This document shows, one piece after another, positions 6,179-22,190 of a stretch of DNA of 22,190 bases; the first letter of the stretch is position 1; each line of letters opens with the position of its first letter. The notes beneath the pieces were generated by a model that had not been told where the DNA came from, made no database searches, and worked only from the letters and a program-made list of their open reading frames with translations. Location: positions 1 to 22,190 of IMG/VR virus record IMGVR_UViG_3300031598_000032. One strand, written 5' to 3'. The DNA is from a virus. The position numbers and the translations under genes were made by a program.

Positions 6179-8578
6179 TTATTTCCGTTTCGTTATGTCA
6201 GCATCATTAATTTGTGCTACTGTGAAGTCTTTAAAAAGTGCGAGAGCGCCTCGAATTTCCTGTCGAGTATCATCCGAAAGCGTTCCGTCCGACAGCGCTT
6301 CTATGAGCGCGGGAATATTAAAGTCTTTTAGCGACGTCATATTTCCGTTATTGGCGGCATTTATTACATCAAGGGTTTCATCCCCAGTGCTCGTTTGGGC
6401 TTTTCTAGGCGGCGTAATCCTCGCGGGAGCTACGTCTTTCGGGTTGCTCGGCGGAGTAACCGATGCGCCTTCAGATTTGCGATCTTGAAACCCATATAGA
6501 ATTGCCTGTTCTTCTGTTAGGTCGTCAGGATTTAGATCATTAATTGCGTTTTCGTTATCGTTTAGACTACCCCCGGGTACTGGTAAGGTTGAATTTACAT
6601 CACCATCTTCAAAGCGTTTCATGCGCCTATGGATACGTCCGAGAATTGCCAGAGTATCTACTGCAAGGTTTTTCTCGTCCAATGGGCGGAACCCCGTTAG
6701 TTTACCTAGTTCCGCGTTACTTCGACTCTCTAGCTGGGTTCTAAAAGTAGCAATCGCAACTTTCGCTTTTGCATGGTTTGTCCATATGGATGGATCAGAG
6801 AATATCTTGGCAAGAATTATCTGCTCCTTTACCACAAAGCGGGGGTTTAAACTAAACAGTCTGATAAAGTCTCGTGCTAAGAGTGCTAAATTCATTCGGG
6901 CTTCTTCAGTTTCTTTATGAACTAGAGAGTCACTGAATGTTCCCAGAACCGTGTTAAATCCCGACTGCACGGCTGAGAAAAGGTCAGTAGCTTTACTTAA
7001 GTCCAGAGGATCTCCATTGGCATCCTTCATCCCCGTAAGCATCAGAGTTAACTCTGAAGCATCTTGGTCAAACCCAGCGGCGAATTCTTTTATACCGTCA
7101 GGCGTAGTTTTAAATGGTGGTGATTCCAAATTTGGAGCGTTGTTAAATGCACGATGCCCCGCCTTATAAAAATCGTATTTCTCGGGCTTATTAGGAATTA
7201 GTCTCTCCGCCTCCGCCAGCGCCTGCTTCGGGGTCATTCTACCCGTATCAGCAAGTAGTATCTCATTCGCCTTCAGTTCTACATCCGACATATATGCTGT
7301 CTCTAAGTCTGTAAAACCCTGTTTGCTACCGTTTATGTCACTGCTCTCTGGTATAAGACCCTGTGCGCCAGTGCGTAGATCATCGACTGCGGCGGATGTT
7401 AATGATCCGTCTCCATTTTTAAAGCTTACGTTCACCCGTGGATTTGGGGTTTGGAATGTAGTTTCACCGACACTCTTGCCATCAATTGGAGTTTTAGCCA
7501 ACGTGGAACCCTCTGGGACAACATTAGTAACAGGGGGACGATCCTTACCCTCTCCCACTGTAGTACCGGCGACATTTACTGTGGAGCCGGGGGTCAAAAT
7601 GTGTTCGGGGATAGCTCTTTCATGTGCCCTGTAGTACATCGATAAGTCGTGTACGTATAACTCAACACTCGGGTAATCTTTAGCCTTTGGCGCGCCCTCG
7701 TAGAACTTATTATTAGCTTTGAATTTTCGCCCTTCTGGGGAGTTGTCAAATCGTATATTAGCTTGTTCCTCCTTCCCCACTTGTGCTGCGTCCAGTAGCC
7801 CCTTGCTCATATAACTTCGGGTGAGGGGGTCACTCAAAAAAGCTTCCAGATCGGCTGGGTCAGCGTACTGGCGGCTGAGATATTTCAGACGCTGTGTCAA
7901 AGCCTGCCTCACCAGAGTCGTGAATATCGTCGTTTTCTTATTAGCTTCCAAGGCTCCGCCAGACGTGTGAACACGCTCAAAGATCCCATCCATCATTTGT
8001 GAAACCTTCGACCCCAAGGGGAATTCTGCTATATAACTCATTCCATCGTTCGTGGCGCGCTCACTATTTTTAGTGTCTCTAATCACTCCAATACTTTTGT
8101 TAGCCGTGGTATCGGATGAAAGTGCGGCGATCTCCAGTTTAGAATTGTAACGATGCCGGTTCACACTGCCGTCCATTTTTCCGCTAAACTTTTCATTTGT
8201 ACGGGCGACTCTTGTTGTGTACTCTTCGATGCCTTCTTCCGTACTTAAGTCCGACGCTTCGATATCAGCAGCGGAGTCATTTTTGTATTGAGCTAAATAT
8301 TCTGCCATGTCGTCATCGGCTTGATCGCCTTCCATTTTTAGTCGGGCATTATACTCAGCGTCAGCGGCGGCCTGATAATCGTCGGATATGTCCATTATTC
8401 TCGATCCAGCTTTAACGAGCGCATCCCCCGGCCCTTTTAAATTGGACGTGACATTGCGTTTTACGTTAGATGCTACAAAGCCTGTATTATTAGGCTGTAC
8501 CTCTACCGGCGAATTGACGTTTCGGTTACGGTGTACCGGATTTGGTCGGCCTTGTGTAATTTCTGGGAGAGCTGTCAT
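6179..8578 (-). CDS. Putative internal virion protein (799 aa)
   Basis: A 799-residue protein between the gp14-like gene and the 1090-residue gene, the place of T7 gp15. The N-terminus (MTALPEITQGRP) is followed by a polar, Asn/Val-rich segment, then long helical acidic stretches (about residues 65-150, including DQADDDMAEYLAQYKNDSAA). A low-complexity region about residues 340-420 contains PPVTNVVPEGST. Helical sequence continues to about 650 and a Pro/Asp-rich linker precedes the C-terminal helical part. No transmembrane segment, signal peptide or catalytic motif is evident. The upstream gap is 26 bases and the ribosome-binding site is weak. The stop abuts the next gene's ATG. The ejection or core role is inferred from gene order, not from a recognised domain. 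Confidence 0.68.
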   Translation of the reverse strand: MTALPEITQGRPNPVHRNRNVNSPVEVQPNNTGFVASNVKRNVTSNLKGPGDALVKAGSRIMDISDDYQAAADAEYNARLKMEGDQADDDMAEYLAQYKNDSAADIEASDLSTEEGIEEYTTRVARTNEKFSGKMDGSVNRHRYNSKLEIAALSSDTTANKSIGVIRDTKNSERATNDGMSYIAEFPLGSKVSQMMDGIFERVHTSGGALEANKKTTIFTTLVRQALTQRLKYLSRQYADPADLEAFLSDPLTRSYMSKGLLDAAQVGKEEQANIRFDNSPEGRKFKANNKFYEGAPKAKDYPSVELYVHDLSMYYRAHERAIPEHILTPGSTVNVAGTTVGEGKDRPPVTNVVPEGSTLAKTPIDGKSVGETTFQTPNPRVNVSFKNGDGSLTSAAVDDLRTGAQGLIPESSDINGSKQGFTDLETAYMSDVELKANEILLADTGRMTPKQALAEAERLIPNKPEKYDFYKAGHRAFNNAPNLESPPFKTTPDGIKEFAAGFDQDASELTLMLTGMKDANGDPLDLSKATDLFSAVQSGFNTVLGTFSDSLVHKETEEARMNLALLARDFIRLFSLNPRFVVKEQIILAKIFSDPSIWTNHAKAKVAIATFRTQLESRSNAELGKLTGFRPLDEKNLAVDTLAILGRIHRRMKRFEDGDVNSTLPVPGGSLNDNENAINDLNPDDLTEEQAILYGFQDRKSEGASVTPPSNPKDVAPARITPPRKAQTSTGDETLDVINAANNGNMTSLKDFNIPALIEALSDGTLSDDTRQEIRGALALFKDFTVAQINDADITKRK

Positions 8579-8604
8579 TATTATATCTCGTTTAGTAAGA
8601 TTAT

Positions 8605-9282
8605 TTAGAATTTGATGCTAGGGTATTTACTCTTCAACGTGCTTGTTTTTTTGGGGGAACTACTTGGGATTTTAGAGGATATGCTACTAGCGCCGCTGAA
8701 AAGAGATGACCCCGCGTTGAACAGCGAGCTAGTTCCGGCCTGCTTGGCCTGTGCCCCGAAGAGCTGCCCTTGAGCTGTTTCATTCTGTGCTTCCAGTCCA
8801 AAGTCCCCTGTTCTCACCGCAAACTGGTTTCTTAAACGCAGCGCGGTTAATTCGTCCTCCCCGGCTGCCTGACCCTGAGTGGAGGCAAAAGATCCCCTGT
8901 CAAGAAGTTGACCCGTAGCTCCTCCTGCAGCAAATCTACGAGCTATTGAAGCGGCTGAATCGCGTCGAAAATCTTCTTCATCTATAACCGCCTGCTGTTG
9001 AGACCTAACCTGATTTCGCCTAGCCAGCTCGGCGTTTTGCCCCGCTACTTGTCCTTGGAATCTTGCGTTAGCTGCCTGAGACTGTCCTTGTGAGACCGCT
9101 CCTACAACGCTTACTAGCGTACTAGCTAATGCTAAATTTGCCGATACGGCGGCACCCCCGGTTAACATGGCACCACCAGCAGTGGCAGTGAAAGCCGCGC
9201 CAAAGCAGTAGCAGTTCTTAAATATCTTAGATACGTCTTCGGTATATCTGAAATCGGCGTATTTATCGTAATTAAACGGCAT
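8605..9282 (-). CDS. Internal virion protein, T7 gp14-like
   Basis: A 225-residue protein with the composition of the gp14 internal virion family: a Gly/Ala-rich hydrophobic stretch at about residues 28-65, then a long Gln/Ala/Arg-rich helix (ARFQGQVAGQNAELARRNQVR), a Gly-rich turn (AAGGATGQLLDRGSFAS) and a second helix (GEDELTALRLRNQFAVRTG), ending in a Ser/Lys-rich tail. gp14-type proteins form part of the internal core and, after ejection, a channel at the outer membrane; that is family knowledge. The gene overlaps the upstream DUF5131-like gene by 11 bases, and AAGGA lies about ten bases before the ATG. A shorter version starting at the internal Met near residue 39 is possible, because residues 1-38 are less typical of the family. 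Confidence 0.78.
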   Translation of the reverse strand: MPFNYDKYADFRYTEDVSKIFKNCYCFGAAFTATAGGAMLTGGAAVSANLALASTLVSVVGAVSQGQSQAANARFQGQVAGQNAELARRNQVRSQQQAVIDEEDFRRDSAASIARRFAAGGATGQLLDRGSFASTQGQAAGEDELTALRLRNQFAVRTGDFGLEAQNETAQGQLFGAQAKQAGTSSLFNAGSSLFSGASSISSKIPSSSPKKTSTLKSKYPSIKF

Positions 9283-10381: not shown

Positions 10382-13189
10382 CTACACTGATGCATTGATT
10401 TTAACCTCTGGAGCTATAGCCAGAAGCGTGAATGGGGCAGGGTCGCTGTTTTGCACCCAAATACGAGGGTCAGACTCCCAGTTGCCTTCCACTTCCACAA
10501 AAAGTTCTCCTGTGAATATGGGGGTACCTGTATCCATAGCGTCTGAAACCTCTCTGAAATCGTTCTTGATAAACGCCGCTCCGGCTGAAACGGTATACTT
10601 TATAGTATGGCTGTAAAGAACTACAAACGTAATTCCGTTAATTCGTTTGTTACGTCCTACTGCCGTACCCGAGGGGTTTCCCCCTTCAATCTTTAATGTC
10701 TGCAGTTTATGTGTGAATCCAAGTCCTACCTGTACCACGGAGGCCGGGATATCAAGTGATATACCGCCGCTTGTAACCACCATGTCTGAATGCAAGGCAC
10801 CGTCGGCCCAGACCTTTACAGTCTGGCCTTCTAAGTGTCCTAGCCCAGTTAACGATGAAGTAGGAGTGCTGTCATAAGTAAGCCCCGAGTCAACGTAGAA
10901 TGCGTCTTCCGTGTCCTGATCATTATCATATTGTCTTTCTAGAAACTCTACGTTTCTAACTGTAGCGCCATTTATAGTCCTTTTTATCTGAATCCATACT
11001 TCATCTCGGGCAGACGAATCATGTGTCTGCCCAACCGCGTTGGCGCCCGGTATAACTACAACACTTTCAACAACAGCGTGACCTTCGCTAGTTACTGCAA
11101 GCCGTGTTTTGTCGGAACTTATTATACTCAAAAGCCCAGTGGCTCCGTGAGTAGTTTCGGTTATAGTAATTACATTTGCCGCAGGGTTAGCCACAGTAAA
11201 ATTTGCATGGGCGTTGATAGCCGTAAATATATTATCCGCTGTTACATTATTTGAAGTGTTGGGTCGAAATCCCAAAGTTTCCGACGGCACAGCCGCGCCA
11301 GCAGCCTCAGATGTAAATGTGATTGTCTCTCCATTGGACTGAATTAAATCTAATGTAGCGCCCGCTGCGAGATTAGCGTAGTCTGAAACGGTAACTGTAG
11401 CGGTTCCAAATCTACCGCCGAATATATGCCGTCCCCATCCAACGACATCTTCTTGGCGTCTAAATGTCATGGCAGGAAGCTGCCCGTCTCCTCGTACAAC
11501 CCATATCTGTGCATCAGGCTCTTCCGCGTGATCCATCTCAACAATACCGCTTTGAGTAATATGTTCTGCAAGTCGAGTCATGTCAAACGCTTGGTACCCG
11601 TCTGTCTCGAACGTAAATCCAAATTCTCGGATCTTTCTCTTAGCACGTTGTGCAAAAAGAACAATATTATCAACTCTCACAGGGGCAATTTGGGCTGACC
11701 CATGTGTAGTCTGTCGTCTAACTGTAATATCTGAAGGTGTTATAACTGATCCGGTAGAAGATGGAATCCACTCACCGCCGGTCGTACCGATTGAAAGTGT
11801 ATCTTCTCCCGCCGACATCCATCTGATAGCATTAACGTTATCAGCGCTAATAGTAAAATCAAGGCCATCGTCGTCGTGAACAGTCTCATCATAAGTCCCC
11901 TCCGTCGGGTCAGAGTCAGGGGCGTGGTTCTCGAAGTCCCCGGTGTTTGATGCCCAGAAGGTTTGGGGCTGATCTGTGCTTCCTGCTGCATATAATCTTT
12001 GCTCAAAGAAAGCCCCAGTTGACGGGTATCCTGTAGTTGCTGACCATGATCCAAGTCTCCATTTAGTTTCTGCTGCAGTACTCACAACGGTTCGTTCAAT
12101 ATCAACTACGGCAACTGTCGTACTCGTAATAGATGTGATCACCCCCCATCCCCAGTTAACGGTAGCCTCGTCGCTCAACCTAATCGACCGGCCTACATCT
12201 GTTGATTGAAAACCTAATCCTCCATTAACGCCTACTATAGTTGATATTGTAAAGTTAACGCCAAGCCCAGTAGCGGCTGATGCCGTCATGGTCGTTTCCG
12301 AAAGGTTCTCCGTTCCCCACGGGCCATCCTGCCACGGGACTTCTATTAGAGACCAAGTAGTATTACCTCGGCGTTCTAATCTATAAGTTGGGTATGATCC
12401 GTGAAACATATACAAGATATCAGCAGACTGCGGCCCTTCTATTTCATAAAGATCCGCTGCCGCATATGGAGTCTTTATCTCCATAGGCTCATTGTCTAGT
12501 ATAGCTACGTTATCAAGTTGGATTCCTTTTGCTAATTCGTTTTCAAACCTTATAAAGAAATTGGCTGCTGTTGCAGTGAATGCATACCCGTGGTATCCAA
12601 CCTCTGCTACGAATGTATCAACAATCTGAGTTCCGCCAGTGGATGTACCAACGCTGAAGATAAGATAGTCTCCGGGGGCACCTATAACTTGGAATTGTAC
12701 AACGTGCTCTACCGCAGACGAATTTGTTATTTCTTGCTCTGCCCCTGCATTTGTGGTTCCGTTAGACGTTAGGGTCATTCTGTCATTGGTAGCGTCATGC
12801 GCTATAGAAGACCCAGCACCAGATTTATCTGTCCAAGACGCAATGCCGGTCGGAAAGGTTCCATTAGCAACGCCCGCCGAGACATCTGGGACAGTGATCT
12901 GTCCTTGATTTCGGTAGAATCGCATAGTACCGTCACCCATTTCGAGAACGTAATTCTGCGTAGTTGAAAATTGGAATTTCTTAAGGCGAGATTTTATAGT
13001 TGCGCCGGTCTTTGTAGCGCTTACATATCGACTCCCCGGACGGCGTTGTATACCACCTTCTGGAAGGGCAGTAAAGTTTTCAAGCGTTTCGACGCCACTG
13101 GGGTACTTGTTGAAGTCTACTCTAGCGGATAGTCGGGGAGATAGCTCCCCTGTGTTCATGGATGGAGTTAATGGGTGGACTTTAGGCAT
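10382..13189 (-). CDS. Tail tubular protein B (T7 gp12-like nozzle protein) with two inserted domains
   Basis: A 935-residue protein with tail tubular B hallmarks: PSMNTGELSPRLSARVDFNKY and QRRPGSRYV near the start, MRFYRNQGQI at 89-98, TPYAAADLYEIEGPQSADILYMFH at 240-263, FFEQRLYAAGSTDQPQTFWAS at 394-414, then VWIQIKRTINGATVRNVEFLER at 731-752. It should form the nozzle of the short tail. At 935 residues it is longer than T7 gp12 (794). Two inserted segments explain the excess. Residues about 106-231 begin GVANGTFPTGIASW and end LDNVAIL, the look of a jelly-roll carbohydrate-binding module. Residues about 594-708 (ANLAAGATLDLIQSNG ... NIFTAINAHANF) resemble a small beta domain often seen repeated in phage tail proteins. 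The ATG overlaps the tail tubular A stop by one base (TAATG). Confidence 0.92.
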   Translation of the reverse strand: MPKVHPLTPSMNTGELSPRLSARVDFNKYPSGVETLENFTALPEGGIQRRPGSRYVSATKTGATIKSRLKKFQFSTTQNYVLEMGDGTMRFYRNQGQITVPDVSAGVANGTFPTGIASWTDKSGAGSSIAHDATNDRMTLTSNGTTNAGAEQEITNSSAVEHVVQFQVIGAPGDYLIFSVGTSTGGTQIVDTFVAEVGYHGYAFTATAANFFIRFENELAKGIQLDNVAILDNEPMEIKTPYAAADLYEIEGPQSADILYMFHGSYPTYRLERRGNTTWSLIEVPWQDGPWGTENLSETTMTASAATGLGVNFTISTIVGVNGGLGFQSTDVGRSIRLSDEATVNWGWGVITSITSTTVAVVDIERTVVSTAAETKWRLGSWSATTGYPSTGAFFEQRLYAAGSTDQPQTFWASNTGDFENHAPDSDPTEGTYDETVHDDDGLDFTISADNVNAIRWMSAGEDTLSIGTTGGEWIPSSTGSVITPSDITVRRQTTHGSAQIAPVRVDNIVLFAQRAKRKIREFGFTFETDGYQAFDMTRLAEHITQSGIVEMDHAEEPDAQIWVVRGDGQLPAMTFRRQEDVVGWGRHIFGGRFGTATVTVSDYANLAAGATLDLIQSNGETITFTSEAAGAAVPSETLGFRPNTSNNVTADNIFTAINAHANFTVANPAANVITITETTHGATGLLSIISSDKTRLAVTSEGHAVVESVVVIPGANAVGQTHDSSARDEVWIQIKRTINGATVRNVEFLERQYDNDQDTEDAFYVDSGLTYDSTPTSSLTGLGHLEGQTVKVWADGALHSDMVVTSGGISLDIPASVVQVGLGFTHKLQTLKIEGGNPSGTAVGRNKRINGITFVVLYSHTIKYTVSAGAAFIKNDFREVSDAMDTGTPIFTGELFVEVEGNWESDPRIWVQNSDPAPFTLLAIAPEVKINASV

Positions 13190-13794
13190 TAGTTACTAAA
13201 CCCAAAACCAGATCGGTTTCTAGAATTGGCCCATGATCCACGAGGGCGAGGTTCTGAGAACGACCCCATAGCATCGAGACCTTTCGCTCGGGCTAAATCT
13301 TTCGTGGCCCTTTTGGAGAGCTGGTCTTCTAAAATATTGGAGTTGGCTATAGTGACGGCTAGGTCTCTTGCTAGAGCAGAAGACAGCGCCTTTCTAAAAC
13401 CCGCAGACATAAGATTGGAGTCAGTTTCTTTGAAAGTGTATACTAGATATATAGATTCTACGTCGCTGGATATGACATTTTGTGACGCAACCTGCTCATG
13501 TCGGAAGTTTATAGTTCCAACCCCCGCATCATTATCGTGAGCTGATATGGTAAAAAGCCAATCGGATGGCAAGGCAAACGCATTATCAAACCCAAAGACC
13601 GGCGCGGTAGTTGACGCTGCAAGCTTAACGCGCTTGGTAGCAAAGTTCCAAGGGTACTCCAAAAGCTCGTCTCTGACATTAGAATAGAGATCCTGAACTG
13701 CGTTAGCGTTAGGTGTGCCCTGAGTAAGCGACGTAATGCGGGTGCCCCCCACGAGGCGTAACGCCACATTAGCGATACTTGTTTCACTTGCCAT
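13189..13794 (-). CDS. Tail tubular protein A (T7 gp11-like adaptor)
   Basis: A 201-residue protein, close to the 196 residues of T7 gp11. It shows the family pattern: SIANVALRLVGGTRITSL at the start, then VQDLYSNVRDELLEYPWNFATKR, the interior FALPSDWLF segment, SIYLVYTFKETD and a C-terminal helical region (LARDLAVTIANSN). Its function is to form the adaptor ring between portal and nozzle. The start is well supported by AAGGAG before the ATG. Its stop overlaps the tail tubular B start by one base, as expected of two proteins that assemble together. The C-terminal tail (PRPRGSWANSRNRSGFGF) is typical of the family in low-complexity character. No anomaly is seen. Confidence 0.93.
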   Translation of the reverse strand: MASETSIANVALRLVGGTRITSLTQGTPNANAVQDLYSNVRDELLEYPWNFATKRVKLAASTTAPVFGFDNAFALPSDWLFTISAHDNDAGVGTINFRHEQVASQNVISSDVESIYLVYTFKETDSNLMSAGFRKALSSALARDLAVTIANSNILEDQLSKRATKDLARAKGLDAMGSFSEPRPRGSWANSRNRSGFGFSN

Positions 13795-18070: not shown

Positions 18071-19771
18071 TTAAGCGGGGACTCCCTGTTGTGGTGCGTT
18101 AGGATCTACGGGTGCGTCAGGGTCTTGTATCAGTCCCGCATCCTTGGCGGCTTTAGCGCCTTTTCCAATGATACCGGCCTGCATATCAGCGGCTTGAAGT
18201 TTCTGCATCTCAGCCATCTTAGCATTCTCCGCTTCAACTTTAGCTTGTACTTCTTCTCTAGTGTTCATTATATCATGTGGCAACGAAGCTGCATCAGCCT
18301 TGAAACGTGCAAGAGCATCAACGTTTACCAGATGTTTTGCTTCTGGAGCTATCTGTGCCATCTGCATAACTTGCATAGCCCAATCGGTAGCTGCGGCAGA
18401 TTGGACTTGTTTCTTAATCTTATCTACAGGCAAATCAAACTCAAACTTAATATTCTGTCCCGAAAGTACCTCTGGGATCTCACCAAAAGCTTCTTCCCGC
18501 ATCAACAATCTAAAAGACCTATCTACCAGAGGTTCGTTATAGTCAGTCTGAAACCTACCAAATACAGGCCCAACTTCACGAATGAACTCATCTTTACGCT
18601 GGATGATCTCCGTAGCAGTCATCTGTGGCCCACCCTGCGGCAAGTTTAGGATGTTTTTGAAGAACGCAGCAGCTACTTGGTTTCTAATATCTGTCTGCAT
18701 ATCTCTAGTCACCGGCAAGTTGTTGCCAGATATCATAGGGAAGAATGGATTACCACCTACCGATGCCGCAGTCTCCACGTCGTAGTAACTAATCCCACCG
18801 GGATAAGTCATAACTTCTTGGAAAGCCCCGTCGTTCGGCGCCATGATTGGTGGATCAGCAAGTCGCTGACCTGCCACCAGAATAGTCTCACCCATAGACT
18901 GCAGGGTATTACTATCAGGTAACGCAATCATACCCGGCGATCTGCCGTACTCTTCCCCGGTGGATGTATCCCACCGTGGAATTACAAAAGGGAATTCGTG
19001 GAAACCGCCCTCCGCAATAATATGTTTGGTTTGAGTTTCCATCCAAAGCTCTTCGATTGGAAAGTCTTTAGCAAATATAGGGTTTTCAATAGTTTTGTTC
19101 TTCCTATCTCCAACCCAATACATTAGATCTATCTTATCGTCAGTTTGGTTGTTCTGGATCTTCTCCTGAACAGTTTTTGACAAATTCTCTTTGCCAAACT
19201 TCAGCTCGGCTTGCCAGATGAACATCTTCTTCGTTCTATACATTCCATAAGGATTACCCTCGTCATCAAACATGGGATAACCATCTTTAAGATGTACAGA
19301 CTGATAAAGTAAATTCTCCTGAGACTTTGCCAGACCTACAAACAGAATACCAGTACCCATTACCACGAGGTCAAGGTCGACTTCCCCTGTTGCTTGTCTA
19401 AACCGCGCAAGGGGATTTCGTATATGACTATCGAGAATCTCGGTAGCCCGACCCATCCACTCTTGAACTTCTCCCTGTTGATTTAAAGTGTCATCTTGGG
19501 CTTTTACTTCCGCTAATGTCTGCCCTTCTGGACGGATCATAGCTCCAACAGTGTTTGCCAGACTACGAGCGGCTTGCATAGGAGTACCATCAAAGATGTT
19601 CTCCATGCGATAATCGCCGTCTACAACAGTCTGGGTAAAACCTTGTCGAGTAGGTAAAAGTACCCTAGACAGGTCGCTCCAATGCTCTTCAAACTGAGAC
19701 CGACGATTACTGGCGGCGGCCTGCTTTTTTATATGATGATTAACTCTCTCTTGGGGAGTTTTAAGTTCCAT
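18071..19771 (-). CDS. Portal protein (podovirus head-to-tail connector)
   Basis: A 566-residue portal of the T7-type head-tail connector family (T7 gp8 has 536). Characteristic segments: RRSQFEEHWSDLSRVLLPTR (about 23-42), then FDGTPMQAARSLANTVGAMIRPEG (about 59-82), GTGILFVGLAKS, the LKDGYPMFDDEGN wing, FPFVIPRWDTSTGEEYGRSPG in the middle, LPQGGPQMTATEIIQRKDEF and DRSFRLLMREEAFGEIPE in the C-terminal half. The C-terminal 60 residues are Ala/Lys/Met-rich helix and a Pro/Asp/Gln tail, likely the barrel or a flexible end. It forms the dodecameric ring at the packaging vertex, receiving terminase and later the tail adaptor (family knowledge). The gene follows two Pro-rich small genes, with a weak TAGG as ribosome-binding site. 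Confidence 0.95.
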   Translation of the reverse strand: MELKTPQERVNHHIKKQAAASNRRSQFEEHWSDLSRVLLPTRQGFTQTVVDGDYRMENIFDGTPMQAARSLANTVGAMIRPEGQTLAEVKAQDDTLNQQGEVQEWMGRATEILDSHIRNPLARFRQATGEVDLDLVVMGTGILFVGLAKSQENLLYQSVHLKDGYPMFDDEGNPYGMYRTKKMFIWQAELKFGKENLSKTVQEKIQNNQTDDKIDLMYWVGDRKNKTIENPIFAKDFPIEELWMETQTKHIIAEGGFHEFPFVIPRWDTSTGEEYGRSPGMIALPDSNTLQSMGETILVAGQRLADPPIMAPNDGAFQEVMTYPGGISYYDVETAASVGGNPFFPMISGNNLPVTRDMQTDIRNQVAAAFFKNILNLPQGGPQMTATEIIQRKDEFIREVGPVFGRFQTDYNEPLVDRSFRLLMREEAFGEIPEVLSGQNIKFEFDLPVDKIKKQVQSAAATDWAMQVMQMAQIAPEAKHLVNVDALARFKADAASLPHDIMNTREEVQAKVEAENAKMAEMQKLQAADMQAGIIGKGAKAAKDAGLIQDPDAPVDPNAPQQGVPA

Positions 19772-19774
19772 GTG

Positions 19775-20017
19775 TTAACCTAGTTTCTTAGTGGTTATAT
19801 TTCCGCCCGTCTCGCTTGATGTTCCTAAACCACCGGACGAAGATCCTGATAACTGAGATCCAGCACGGCCTCTGCGACGAGCCAACACCTCTTTATTCGA
19901 CTGCTTCGTTTCCACAGGAGGTGGAGGCGGAGGAGGCGGTGGAGGCGGTGGCGGGGGCGGAGGAGGGGGTCTGGGAGGTGGTGACCCACCGCCCGGTATT
20001 ATACAAAGGTTTTTCAT
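19775..20017 (-). CDS. Poly-proline small protein with RRGRAGS motif (80 aa)
   Basis: An 80-residue protein: MKNLCIIPGGGSPPPR, then 18 consecutive prolines (codons at 19916-19969), a short Lys/Glu region and RRRGRAGSQLSGSSSGGLG, ending TTKKLG. All four proline codons are mixed within the run, so this is not recent triplet slippage. Pro-rich small proteins with an (R)RGRxS-type motif, encoded close to the portal, are familiar from other phages, but I do not know a tested function. The run would need elongation factor P for efficient translation. It shares RRGRAGS and the final LG with the next gene upstream, so the two are paralogues. TAGGA lies seven bases before the ATG. Confidence 0.72.
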   Translation of the reverse strand: MKNLCIIPGGGSPPPRPPPPPPPPPPPPPPPPPPVETKQSNKEVLARRRGRAGSQLSGSSSGGLGTSSETGGNITTKKLG

Positions 20018-20019
20018 AA

Positions 20020-20253
20020 TTATCCTAAGTTCCCTTCTTCACCAGTTGCAGATTCGTTTAGAATACTACCACCAGTGGACTTGTTTTGAGTTAGTATAGA
20101 ACCCGCACGACCTCTGCGTTTCGCCACACTGTTTTTTAAATCTAATTTAGCCTGTTCAACAGCCGGATCAGCCCGAGCAACTGGAGGAGGCAATGGAGGC
20201 GGAAGTGGGGGCGGAGCACCGGGGCCACCGCCGAAGCCGGGAAATATATTCAT
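20020..20253 (-). CDS. Pro-rich small protein with RRGRAGS motif (77 aa)
   Basis: A 77-residue paralogue of the adjacent poly-proline protein. It starts MNIFPGFGGGPGAPPPLPPPLPPP, has a short helical DPAVEQAKLDLKNSVAK region, then RRGRAGSILTQNKSTGG and a GNLG end. The RRGRAGSILT segment is the best match to the RGRxSTILT motif I know from small phage proteins near portal genes. Its first eight residues are identical to those of the 122-residue protein at 20716-21084. The ATG overlaps the upstream stop (ATGA at 20250-20253), so translation is coupled. Function unknown; a flexible, Pro-rich linker joining two short conserved ends suggests an adaptor or scaffold-like contact. Confidence 0.75.
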   Translation of the reverse strand: MNIFPGFGGGPGAPPPLPPPLPPPVARADPAVEQAKLDLKNSVAKRRGRAGSILTQNKSTGGSILNESATGEEGNLG

Positions 20254-20618: not shown

Positions 20619-20719
20619 TTAGCTCCCGGTCTTGTTATACGCCCGCCTTGGGACTGAGTATTAGGTTTTATAGCTACATCTCTTTTGCCATCGTCGCCCT
20701 TCTTCTTTTTCTTGCTCAT
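20615..20719 (-). CDS. Very small Lys-rich protein (34 aa)
   Basis: A 34-residue frame starting MSKKKKKGDDGKRD and ending GGRITRPGAK. Support comes from context: TTAGGAGAGG ends four bases before the ATG. The ATG overlaps the upstream stop (ATGA at 20716-20719) and its stop overlaps the next ATG (ATGA at 20615-20618). Such double coupling is unlikely by chance. The C-terminal GGRITRPG is loosely like the DKQITRRG end of the Bbp19-like protein. No family recognised; too short for a folded domain, so probably a peptide that binds a larger protein or nucleic acid. Confidence 0.72.
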   Translation of the reverse strand: MSKKKKKGDDGKRDVAIKPNTQSQGGRITRPGAK

Positions 20720-21084
20720 CGTCCTCTCCTAACTCTGCGATTATTCCTACGTCTATTAACCGTATTACTAGAACTGCTGTTGGGTTTTGAAGCCGATGAT
20801 GTAGTCGCCGGAGAAGCTCCAGCAGGCGGCGTGATATTAGCGGCCTCTGGTCTTACTATCTGTTTGAAGGTTTTATTATTGTTCTGGACTTCGTTAGCTG
20901 TATTCTGGCGCCGTGTTAAGTCTCTAGCATCTCGACGTTCGGTTCTTGCGGCCTGATTAGCTGTTCTTTGGGTCTGACGAGTAGCGAACTGTTCGTTTCT
21001 CAGATTCAAAGCTTTGGTATTTGCAACAGTCTCGGGGTTACTTCCAAAAGCTTTGGGGTCGCCAAAGCCGGGGAATATGTTCAT
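20716..21084 (-). CDS. Arg/Gln/Asn-rich protein with MNIFPGFG start (122 aa)
   Basis: A 122-residue protein starting MNIFPGFGDPKAFGSNPETV. A helical Gln/Arg/Ala-rich stretch (residues about 25-75, with ARTERRDARDLTRRQNTANE) follows, then a Pro/Ala/Ser linker and a very basic end, NRRRNNRRVRRGR. Its first eight residues equal those of the 77-residue Pro-rich protein, and the 24 bases encoding them differ only at three silent positions. The remaining sequence is unrelated, so the N-terminus looks like a transferable tag. It starts two bases after the 57-residue gene's stop, using GGAGAGG encoded in that gene's last codons. Role unknown. Confidence 0.7.
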   Translation of the reverse strand: MNIFPGFGDPKAFGSNPETVANTKALNLRNEQFATRQTQRTANQAARTERRDARDLTRRQNTANEVQNNNKTFKQIVRPEAANITPPAGASPATTSSASKPNSSSSNTVNRRRNNRRVRRGR

Positions 21085-21085
21085 G

Positions 21086-21259
21086 TTATCCTCTCCACTT
21101 GTGGGGGTTATATTTACTCTTCTGCGTATTTGGTTTATGTACCTTCTTTGCTAGAACGTGCTTCGACTGTTCTCGTTCCCTTTGCTCGAAGTAAGCCTGC
21201 AACGTTGAGATAGTCCATCCGTTCTTTATCTCTTCAGGCGTTAGTATAAGATCTGACAC
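21086..21259 (-). CDS. Small GTG-start protein following terminase (57 aa)
   Basis: This frame has no ATG. It starts with GTG at 21259, which overlaps the terminase stop by one base (TAGTG), with GGAG six bases upstream. It encodes VSDLILTPEEIKNGWTIST (N-terminal residue read as Met), a charged helix (residues about 21-40) and a C-terminal KPNTQKSKYNPHKWRG. The C-terminal ten residues mirror the terminase end, SRYNPHKNWRR, and the DNA is also nearly duplicated. LTPEEI...W is a plausible small helical N-terminal motif, but no family is recognised. Tight coupling to terminase suggests a packaging-related role. Confidence 0.72.
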   Translation of the reverse strand: MSDLILTPEEIKNGWTISTLQAYFEQREREQSKHVLAKKVHKPNTQKSKYNPHKWRG

Positions 21260-21288
21260 TATCGTCTCCAGTTCTTATGGGGGTTATA
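21086..21288 (-). repeat. Imperfect direct repeat ending terminase and the 57-aa gene
   Basis: The 30 bases at 21259-21288 (end of terminase) and the 27 bases at 21086-21112 (end of the 57-residue gene) align with 24 identities in 27 positions plus one 3-base gap. Both copies end exactly at the stop codon. Each contains TGGAGA, the ribosome-binding site of the following gene. Both encode YNPHK-(N)-WR. Confidence 0.85.
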
Positions 21289-22190
21289 CCGTGAGTTAGT
21301 ACGTTTGGGCGAAGTGTTAAATCCCCCTGCTTTCCTCTTAGCGGGTATCAGAGCATACACTGCAGAGTCGCCTTTTCCGGGCGATCTACCAATTCTCTTC
21401 TTAAGATCTCCAAATCCGTCCTTACATTCCGTCGATTTGCCCTCAACTTGAATACCACGACTAGTTAACTGCCACTTTGGGGCTGCAAGATCAACTTTTA
21501 GCTCTCTGTCTGGCGGTAATGCAATCGGTTCAAGGTTATTAGGGTTCAAAGCCTCCCGCATTCTCCACCACAGCATACTGCGAGTGTTAAAGAAGCCCAA
21601 ATTGCCAGATTCATCCCTCTCATGGCATTCTTTGCGTCCGTCAACAGAGTAAACGTTAATTCCGTTCGTCTTCAAGTGATCTAATATAGATGCACCAGCT
21701 CCACCAATGATGTCGAGCATGATCTGCGCTCCATCCCTTACATAAGTAGTACATATGGCAGCACCAGTGGGGCCGTCTGGAGTGGACTCACCCTTCAAAA
21801 CGATCTGAGGAGCAAACCACCTGCCATATCTACCTGTGACTACAAAATCATCCTTACCTCCTCGTGCCGGGTCACAACCTAATGATTCCATCTTAGCACC
21901 TTGAGGCTTCTCGTCTGTCCATCTAGCCTGTGCCAGTTCAATCCAAGCTGTTGGTATAACCTGCCACGGGTCATCAAGCACCCCTGCAGTGAAATCCCCC
22001 ATCAGCATCTGACTACGGAGCGGCTCGGGTAGTGCTTGTAGAGCTGCTTTGTATCCAGAGTTAATTAAAAACGGATTGTCATCAATAGATGACGGTATGA
22101 ATGTTCTAGATCGGGGTTGTACCCAATCACCATCTTGCCATATAGGCTCACTACTTGGTACTTCTAAATCCTCACCTTCTGAGTCAGATA
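21259..22190 (-). CDS. Terminase large subunit, C-terminal part (partial)
   Basis: The frame is open from the right edge to the stop at 21259: 309 residues plus two bases, so the ATPase part of the protein lies outside the window. Internal Met codons near 22008 are not real starts, because the upstream sequence continues the family pattern: RSRTFIPSSIDDNPFL, then GYKAALQALPEPLRSQMLMGDF. The nuclease (RNase H-like) domain follows: LGCDPARGGKDDFVV holds the first acidic residue, IMLDIIGGAGASILDHL the second, and GKGDSAVYAL the last, with NTRSMLWWRMREAL and IALPPDRELKVDL between. Terminase pumps DNA through the portal and cuts concatemers. The basic C-terminal tail (SPKRTNSRYNPHKNWRR) may contact the portal. 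It lies upstream of the portal, unlike in T7. Confidence 0.95.
   Translation of the reverse strand, partial: SDSEGEDLEVPSSEPIWQDGDWVQPRSRTFIPSSIDDNPFLINSGYKAALQALPEPLRSQMLMGDFTAGVLDDPWQVIPTAWIELAQARWTDEKPQGAKMESLGCDPARGGKDDFVVTGRYGRWFAPQIVLKGESTPDGPTGAAICTTYVRDGAQIMLDIIGGAGASILDHLKTNGINVYSVDGRKECHERDESGNLGFFNTRSMLWWRMREALNPNNLEPIALPPDRELKVDLAAPKWQLTSRGIQVEGKSTECKDGFGDLKKRIGRSPGKGDSAVYALIPAKRKAGGFNTSPKRTNSRYNPHKNWRR

Follow-up and report, generated by a model that had tools for sequence, protein, structure and literature searches.

Why should two neighbouring genes of one virus, encoding the large terminase subunit (TerL) and a protein of 57 residues (here the NGWT protein), end in nearly the same peptide? 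This question is raised by a linear IMG/VR virus record of 22,190 bases, analysed over its whole length (the window), whose genes lie on the minus strand (Table 1). How TerL docks on the portal and leaves it is a long-standing question, for which a peptide shared with a 57-residue partner offers a simple handle.

Two gene ends with a common tail

In the window, TerL, whose full-length homologues have about 530 residues, ends in ..NSRYNPHKNWRR, with SRYNPHKNWRR as its last residues and a stop at 21259. The NGWT gene begins with GTG, overlaps the terL stop by one base, to which it is probably coupled in translation, and ends in QKSKYNPHKWRG, with KSKYNPHKWRG as its last residues and a stop at 21086. 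A preliminary description of this DNA, which pointed to these near-identical tails running to the stop codon and to a TGGAGA in each copy ahead of the following gene, is borne out on both points, the hexamer standing just upstream of both next starts (GTG at 21259 and ATG at 21084). Its count of 24 identical bases with a codon gap also holds, except that the aligned positions number 26 and not 27 (24/26 identical, plus a 3-nt gap). This match is the best among all gene-end pairs in the window, but a set of about 20,000 random pairs contained one with a higher score and one with an equal score. By itself, the DNA match is moderately unlikely by chance, and the window evidence alone is only suggestive because random pairs reach or exceed its score; the decisive evidence for twin tails is conservation across genomes.

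Table 1. Coordinates of the terminase, the NGWT gene, their tails and associated features in the window
Feature	Position	Strand	Basis or remark
terL, terminase large subunit, C-terminal part	21259..22190	-	Open at window edge; ORF listing; phrog_2 E=1.9e-13
TerL C-terminal tail TNSRYNPHKNWRR	21262..21300	-	Sequence; kept in relatives
TGGAGA, W-R codons near TerL end; plausible ribosome-binding site of NGWT gene	21265..21270	-	
NGWT protein gene, 57 codons	21086..21259	-	ORF listing; alignment; dN/dS
NGWT protein C-terminal tail KSKYNPHKWRG	21089..21121	-	Sequence; kept in 39/41 homologues
TGGAGA, NGWT W-R codons; plausible ribosome-binding site of next gene (ATG 21084)	21092..21097	-	
T7-type portal (head-tail connector)	18071..19771	-	PF12236 E=8.4e-98; phrog_332 E=5.6e-97
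Probable gp11-like gene	13189-13794		Assigned by eye

The window also encodes a Phage_capsid_2 major capsid protein, and its terL-portal interval holds further small genes. The octapeptide MNIFPGFG opens two different small proteins there (20716-21084 and 20020-20253), with similar starts in relatives L011, L017 and L036, and the neighbouring small proline-rich proteins (20020-20253 and 19775-20017) have in common an RRGRAGSxL motif and ends in LG; proteins of a similar RGRxxTILT kind occur in this interval in HTVC010P, epsilon15 and others. GNAT-like acetyltransferase genes lie downstream of the small gene in the interval of L021 and L107, and BPP-1 bbp24 is a GNAT-like acetyltransferase in a comparable interval, all assigned by eye.

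Conservation and covariation of the two tails

Relatives were collected by a TerL scan, which gave 35 loci, and by a profile of the small protein, which gave 60 viral loci and two MAG contigs, the latter being the only genome contigs with the small protein found by the profile search. TerL tails played no part in picking the small-protein-profile loci, in which nearly all TerLs nevertheless end in N-x-x-Y-x-P-H-[RK]. Both tails approximate N-x-[RK]-Y-x-P-H-[RK] in 42 non-redundant related loci, where the anchor Y is present in 41/42 TerLs and 40/42 small proteins and the P at +2 in 38/42 and 41/42, respectively. The common consensus extends to P-x-x-x-N-x-[RK]-Y-x-P-H-[RK], to which the small protein adds W-R; nearly all small proteins have an N-G-W-T core, and their tail takes the form Y-x-P-(H/L/F)-x-W-R. 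When TerL tails were compared with the tails of other ORFs in related loci (5,225 comparisons), the top 19 were all pairs of TerL and small protein. The tail occurs on two TerL families, one BPP-1-like of about 530 residues and one Terminase_3/Terminase_6C of about 430, and on TerL it is short, conserved and at the extreme C-terminus beyond the nuclease domain (model confidence below 50 over residues 250-309, in a TerL fragment model that is poor overall).

An N-terminal pattern, blind to the tail, recovered 41 distinct small proteins, of which 39 keep the tail. The preliminary description had asked for a motif kept in the homologues of both proteins and covarying, which is what is found, and had named as an adverse case a small protein without the motif beside a TerL that keeps it. 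The two small proteins that lost the tail (L098 and L103) differ from that case, since their TerLs are also without the Y-x-P-H tail; L035 and L017, on the other hand, have small proteins that retain the motif beside TerLs with a drifted tail, which speaks against a common docking peptide.

The twin-tail viruses are uncultured bacterial viruses that make up a large group, and tblastn with two queries found no cultured phage with an NGWT gene. One locus (L043, PQ492659.1, Limnohabitans phage DC33) is labelled Inoviridae, and its terL region matches BPP-1-like tailed phages. As most phages with a T7-type portal are without the NGWT gene, it is not generally essential. The AlphaFold model of the NGWT protein has two helices (8-12 and 17-36) and a loose tail (mean pLDDT 80, pTM 0.47), with no significant Foldseek match and no meaningful PDB match, and the family has no Pfam, PHROG or NCBIfam match and no sequence relation in the PDB. 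One identity, a small terminase subunit (TerS), was considered and set aside, on the lack of a family match and the presence of a separate TerS-like gene upstream of terL in relatives. The same Pfam, PHROG, NCBIfam, PDB and Foldseek comparisons gave no sequence or fold relation to a known portal adaptor or head-completion protein.

Covariation was assessed in the 42 non-redundant pairs, aligned on Y with rows anchored by pattern, leaving out L098 and L103, whose two proteins both lack an alignable motif, and L101, which yielded no TerL. A genome's own tails are more alike than shuffled ones (z 6.3 for 42 pairs and 5.9 for 27 representatives; z 4.3 when shuffled within GC bins and 2.1-2.8 with seven degenerate pairs dropped), in a signal where loci share ancestry and a few departures carry much of the weight. 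Some departures occur in both tails at once: Y-x-V-H in L093, with V replacing P; Y-R-P-L in L104, with L replacing H; Y-S-P in L090, L100 and L106; and, in eight loci, S, R or D as the x residue. In L099 both proteins stop exactly at ..KW. One ancient duplication, after which the tails were retained for unrelated reasons, would make the likeness mainly ancestral, and the alignable stretch does extend to a common proline seven residues before Y. Tails retained independently, however, would resemble each other no more within a genome than after shuffling, and this reading is judged improbable, common ancestry limiting the number of independent events.

The same alignments bear on the alternative raised in the preliminary description, that a ribosome-binding-site segment was duplicated and is coding by chance, the protein likeness being a by-product. 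The near-identity of the window DNA and the hexamer before both next starts are what such an event would leave, and many relatives have TGG-AGR near a start. Across the 42 loci, however, the two tails share a codon at 104 of 243 same-residue positions, where the codon usage of each genome predicts 107.1. W-R is encoded as TGG-AGR in many lineages and as TGG-CGN in many others, so a ribosome-binding site explains at most codon choice, and Y-x-P-H lies outside it; in many relatives, moreover, the twin tails persist with other genes inserted between terL and the small gene. The duplicated-site account is thus left unsupported and is considered extremely improbable. Pooled tail divergence per site is about 0.8 synonymous against 0.08-0.12 nonsynonymous, and dN/dS of the NGWT gene is about 0.02-0.16 in pairs with measurable dS. 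The small protein is under strong selection, and because codon identity is at expectation and synonymous divergence lies far above nonsynonymous divergence, selection acts on the protein and not on the DNA.

Terminase tail type and portal type

TerL scans of both families covered at least 160 loci, with TerL ends and portals classed by profiles made here. Beside T7-type (PF12236) portals without an NGWT gene, 25 of 32 non-identical TerL tails among the matches listed have a Y-x-P/V end, and YDPY, of the BPP-1 kind, is the form of the TerL tail there. Cultured relatives with the motif include BPP-1 (LDYDPYARM), epsilon15 (TEYDPWK) and SR18 (DHDPYADLG); T7 (..FIEW), ZP6 (..KRKR) and L127 have a T7-type portal but a TerL without Y-x-P, and pelagiphage TerL tails bear only a loose resemblance. 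Beside P22/SU10-type portals, the Y-x-P/V end occurs in 0/40 TerL tails and a W-[ML]-G-type end in 25/40, again among the matches listed. The association of tail with portal type (Fisher p of about 2e-13 for Y-x-P/V and about 4e-9 for W-[ML]-G) is a correlation among related sequences, calculated on the matches listed with relatedness ignored and with patterns fixed only once the data had been inspected. The pair L225 and L264 makes the strongest single case for the tail following the portal, with 75% identity between their TerL cores over 448 residues: L225 ends in PYDPYANLNR beside a PF12236 portal and L264 in GSSSGWMG beside a PF16510 P22_portal. The type of TerL tail goes with the type of the portal beside it and not with the TerL body. 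[SGA]-W-[ML]-G ends are common on the TerLs of L124-L203, which lie beside P22/SU10-type portals, and could be a second portal-specific docking tail.

At the level of sequence comparison, then, tails that are shared, selected and covarying, and a tail type linked to portal type, are established. In P22, TerL without residues 483-499, the last 17, loses procapsid portal binding, and the source states that such a loss has likewise been reported for T3 and lambda TerL (PMC5290284). Because of this work and the link between tail and portal, the TerL tail is most simply read as a portal key. The suggestion in the preliminary description that the small protein may carry a mimic of a docking peptide is partly supported by the homologue comparison and by tail switching with the portal, set beside the work on P22, T3 and lambda (PMC5290284).

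If the tails were basic peptides kept for their charge, binding DNA or RNA non-specifically, their richness in K, R, W and H would be accounted for. The most fixed residues, however, are Y, P, N and H and not charges, the equivalent YDPY tail of TerLs beside T7-type portals without NGWT is not basic, and the P-to-V change common to both L093 tails is not charge-driven, which leaves this reading very improbable. Both tails might instead bind another common partner, whether the TerL ring, TerS, a host factor or one of the scaffold and capsid proteins, which would make the small protein a motor subunit or regulator. Conservation and covariation need a common partner, whichever it is, TerS-like genes lie upstream of terL, and head genes travel with the portal, so that another head protein could lie behind the correlation with portal type. 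Against this, two TerL families bear the tail, which changes when the portal type does, and the TerL C-tail partners described for P22, T3 and lambda are portals (PMC5290284). Another partner is considered unlikely, yet it deserves more weight than charge or ancestry.

A proposed copy of a docking peptide and its relation to known systems

The favoured explanation, held with moderate confidence, is that the shared tail is a portal-docking peptide, of which the small protein carries a copy, and the T7-type portal of the window is proposed as the docking partner of both tails. TerL would grip this portal by its tail, at the end of a linker behind the nuclease domain, and the NGWT protein, in which this peptide comes after a small helical stretch, would bind the same portal site. 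Across distant relatives the shared peptide has persisted and its changes run in parallel, so the small protein probably attaches to the docking site on the virus shell that the motor uses, and it may have a part in regulating or replacing the motor. It would most likely serve at the portal as a placeholder or competitor that fills the docking sites before packaging, or else as a release or hand-over factor that takes the place of TerL once packaging is over; that it physically binds the portal, and that it competes or hands over there, is what we infer from the tails.

A possible second, independent twin-tail case is found in L190, where TerL ends in ..LVVKDYNPYATV (VVKDYNPYATV; end at 6197) and an 86-residue protein unrelated to NGWT (8454-8714), just downstream of the T7-type portal, ends in VVIDYNPYGFENERSA (..KVVIDYNPYGFENERSA). 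This case is one genome, a search for relatives of the 86-residue protein having given none besides itself; it shows the picture to be expected had the same device arisen independently. A broader proposal, that the NGWT family is widespread, mimics the terminase docking peptide, competes for the portal and times motor docking or release, with independent examples elsewhere such as L190, is put forward tentatively and is on balance doubtful. The twin tails offer a function for an unannotated protein family, and the portal correlation suggests a possible general rule in which TerL carries at its extreme C-terminus a key specific to the portal type (Y-x-P for T7-type and W-[ML]-G for P22/SU10-type portals), which could predict motor-portal compatibility in uncultured phages.

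A docking tail on TerL is already known, whereas the papers searched gave no conserved family of separate proteins whose tail matches it and covaries with it. A literature search with little reach into subscription papers and preprints returned no described terminase-tail mimic, and no description was found of a second protein with the same tail as P22, T3 or lambda TerL. We know of no copy of the TerL tail in P22 gp4. P22 gp4 may nevertheless be an analogue: its extended C-terminal tail is inserted on the portal and is suggested to assist in dislodging TerL (PMC5290284), so that a portal-binding C-tail on a second protein, possibly with such a role, has a precedent. No sequence relation of the NGWT protein to P22 gp4 or the T7 gp11-type adaptors was found, and the window has its own probable gp11-like gene. 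As in BPP-1, epsilon15 and Caulobacter phage SR18, where an extreme C-terminal Y/H-D-P-Y/W motif is found on TerL beside T7-type portals, the tail described here closes the terminase, but those phages show no NGWT gene and no twin tail, and have YDPY in place of YNPHKxWR. The P22 TerL tail, rich in basic residues and proline (PMC5290284), differs in sequence (IRKPKEKKIPAPIRPVRR) from the tail described here, which is nevertheless like P22 gp2 (483-499), T3 gp19 and lambda gpA in that these are stated to have a short extreme TerL C-terminus needed for portal binding (PMC5290284).
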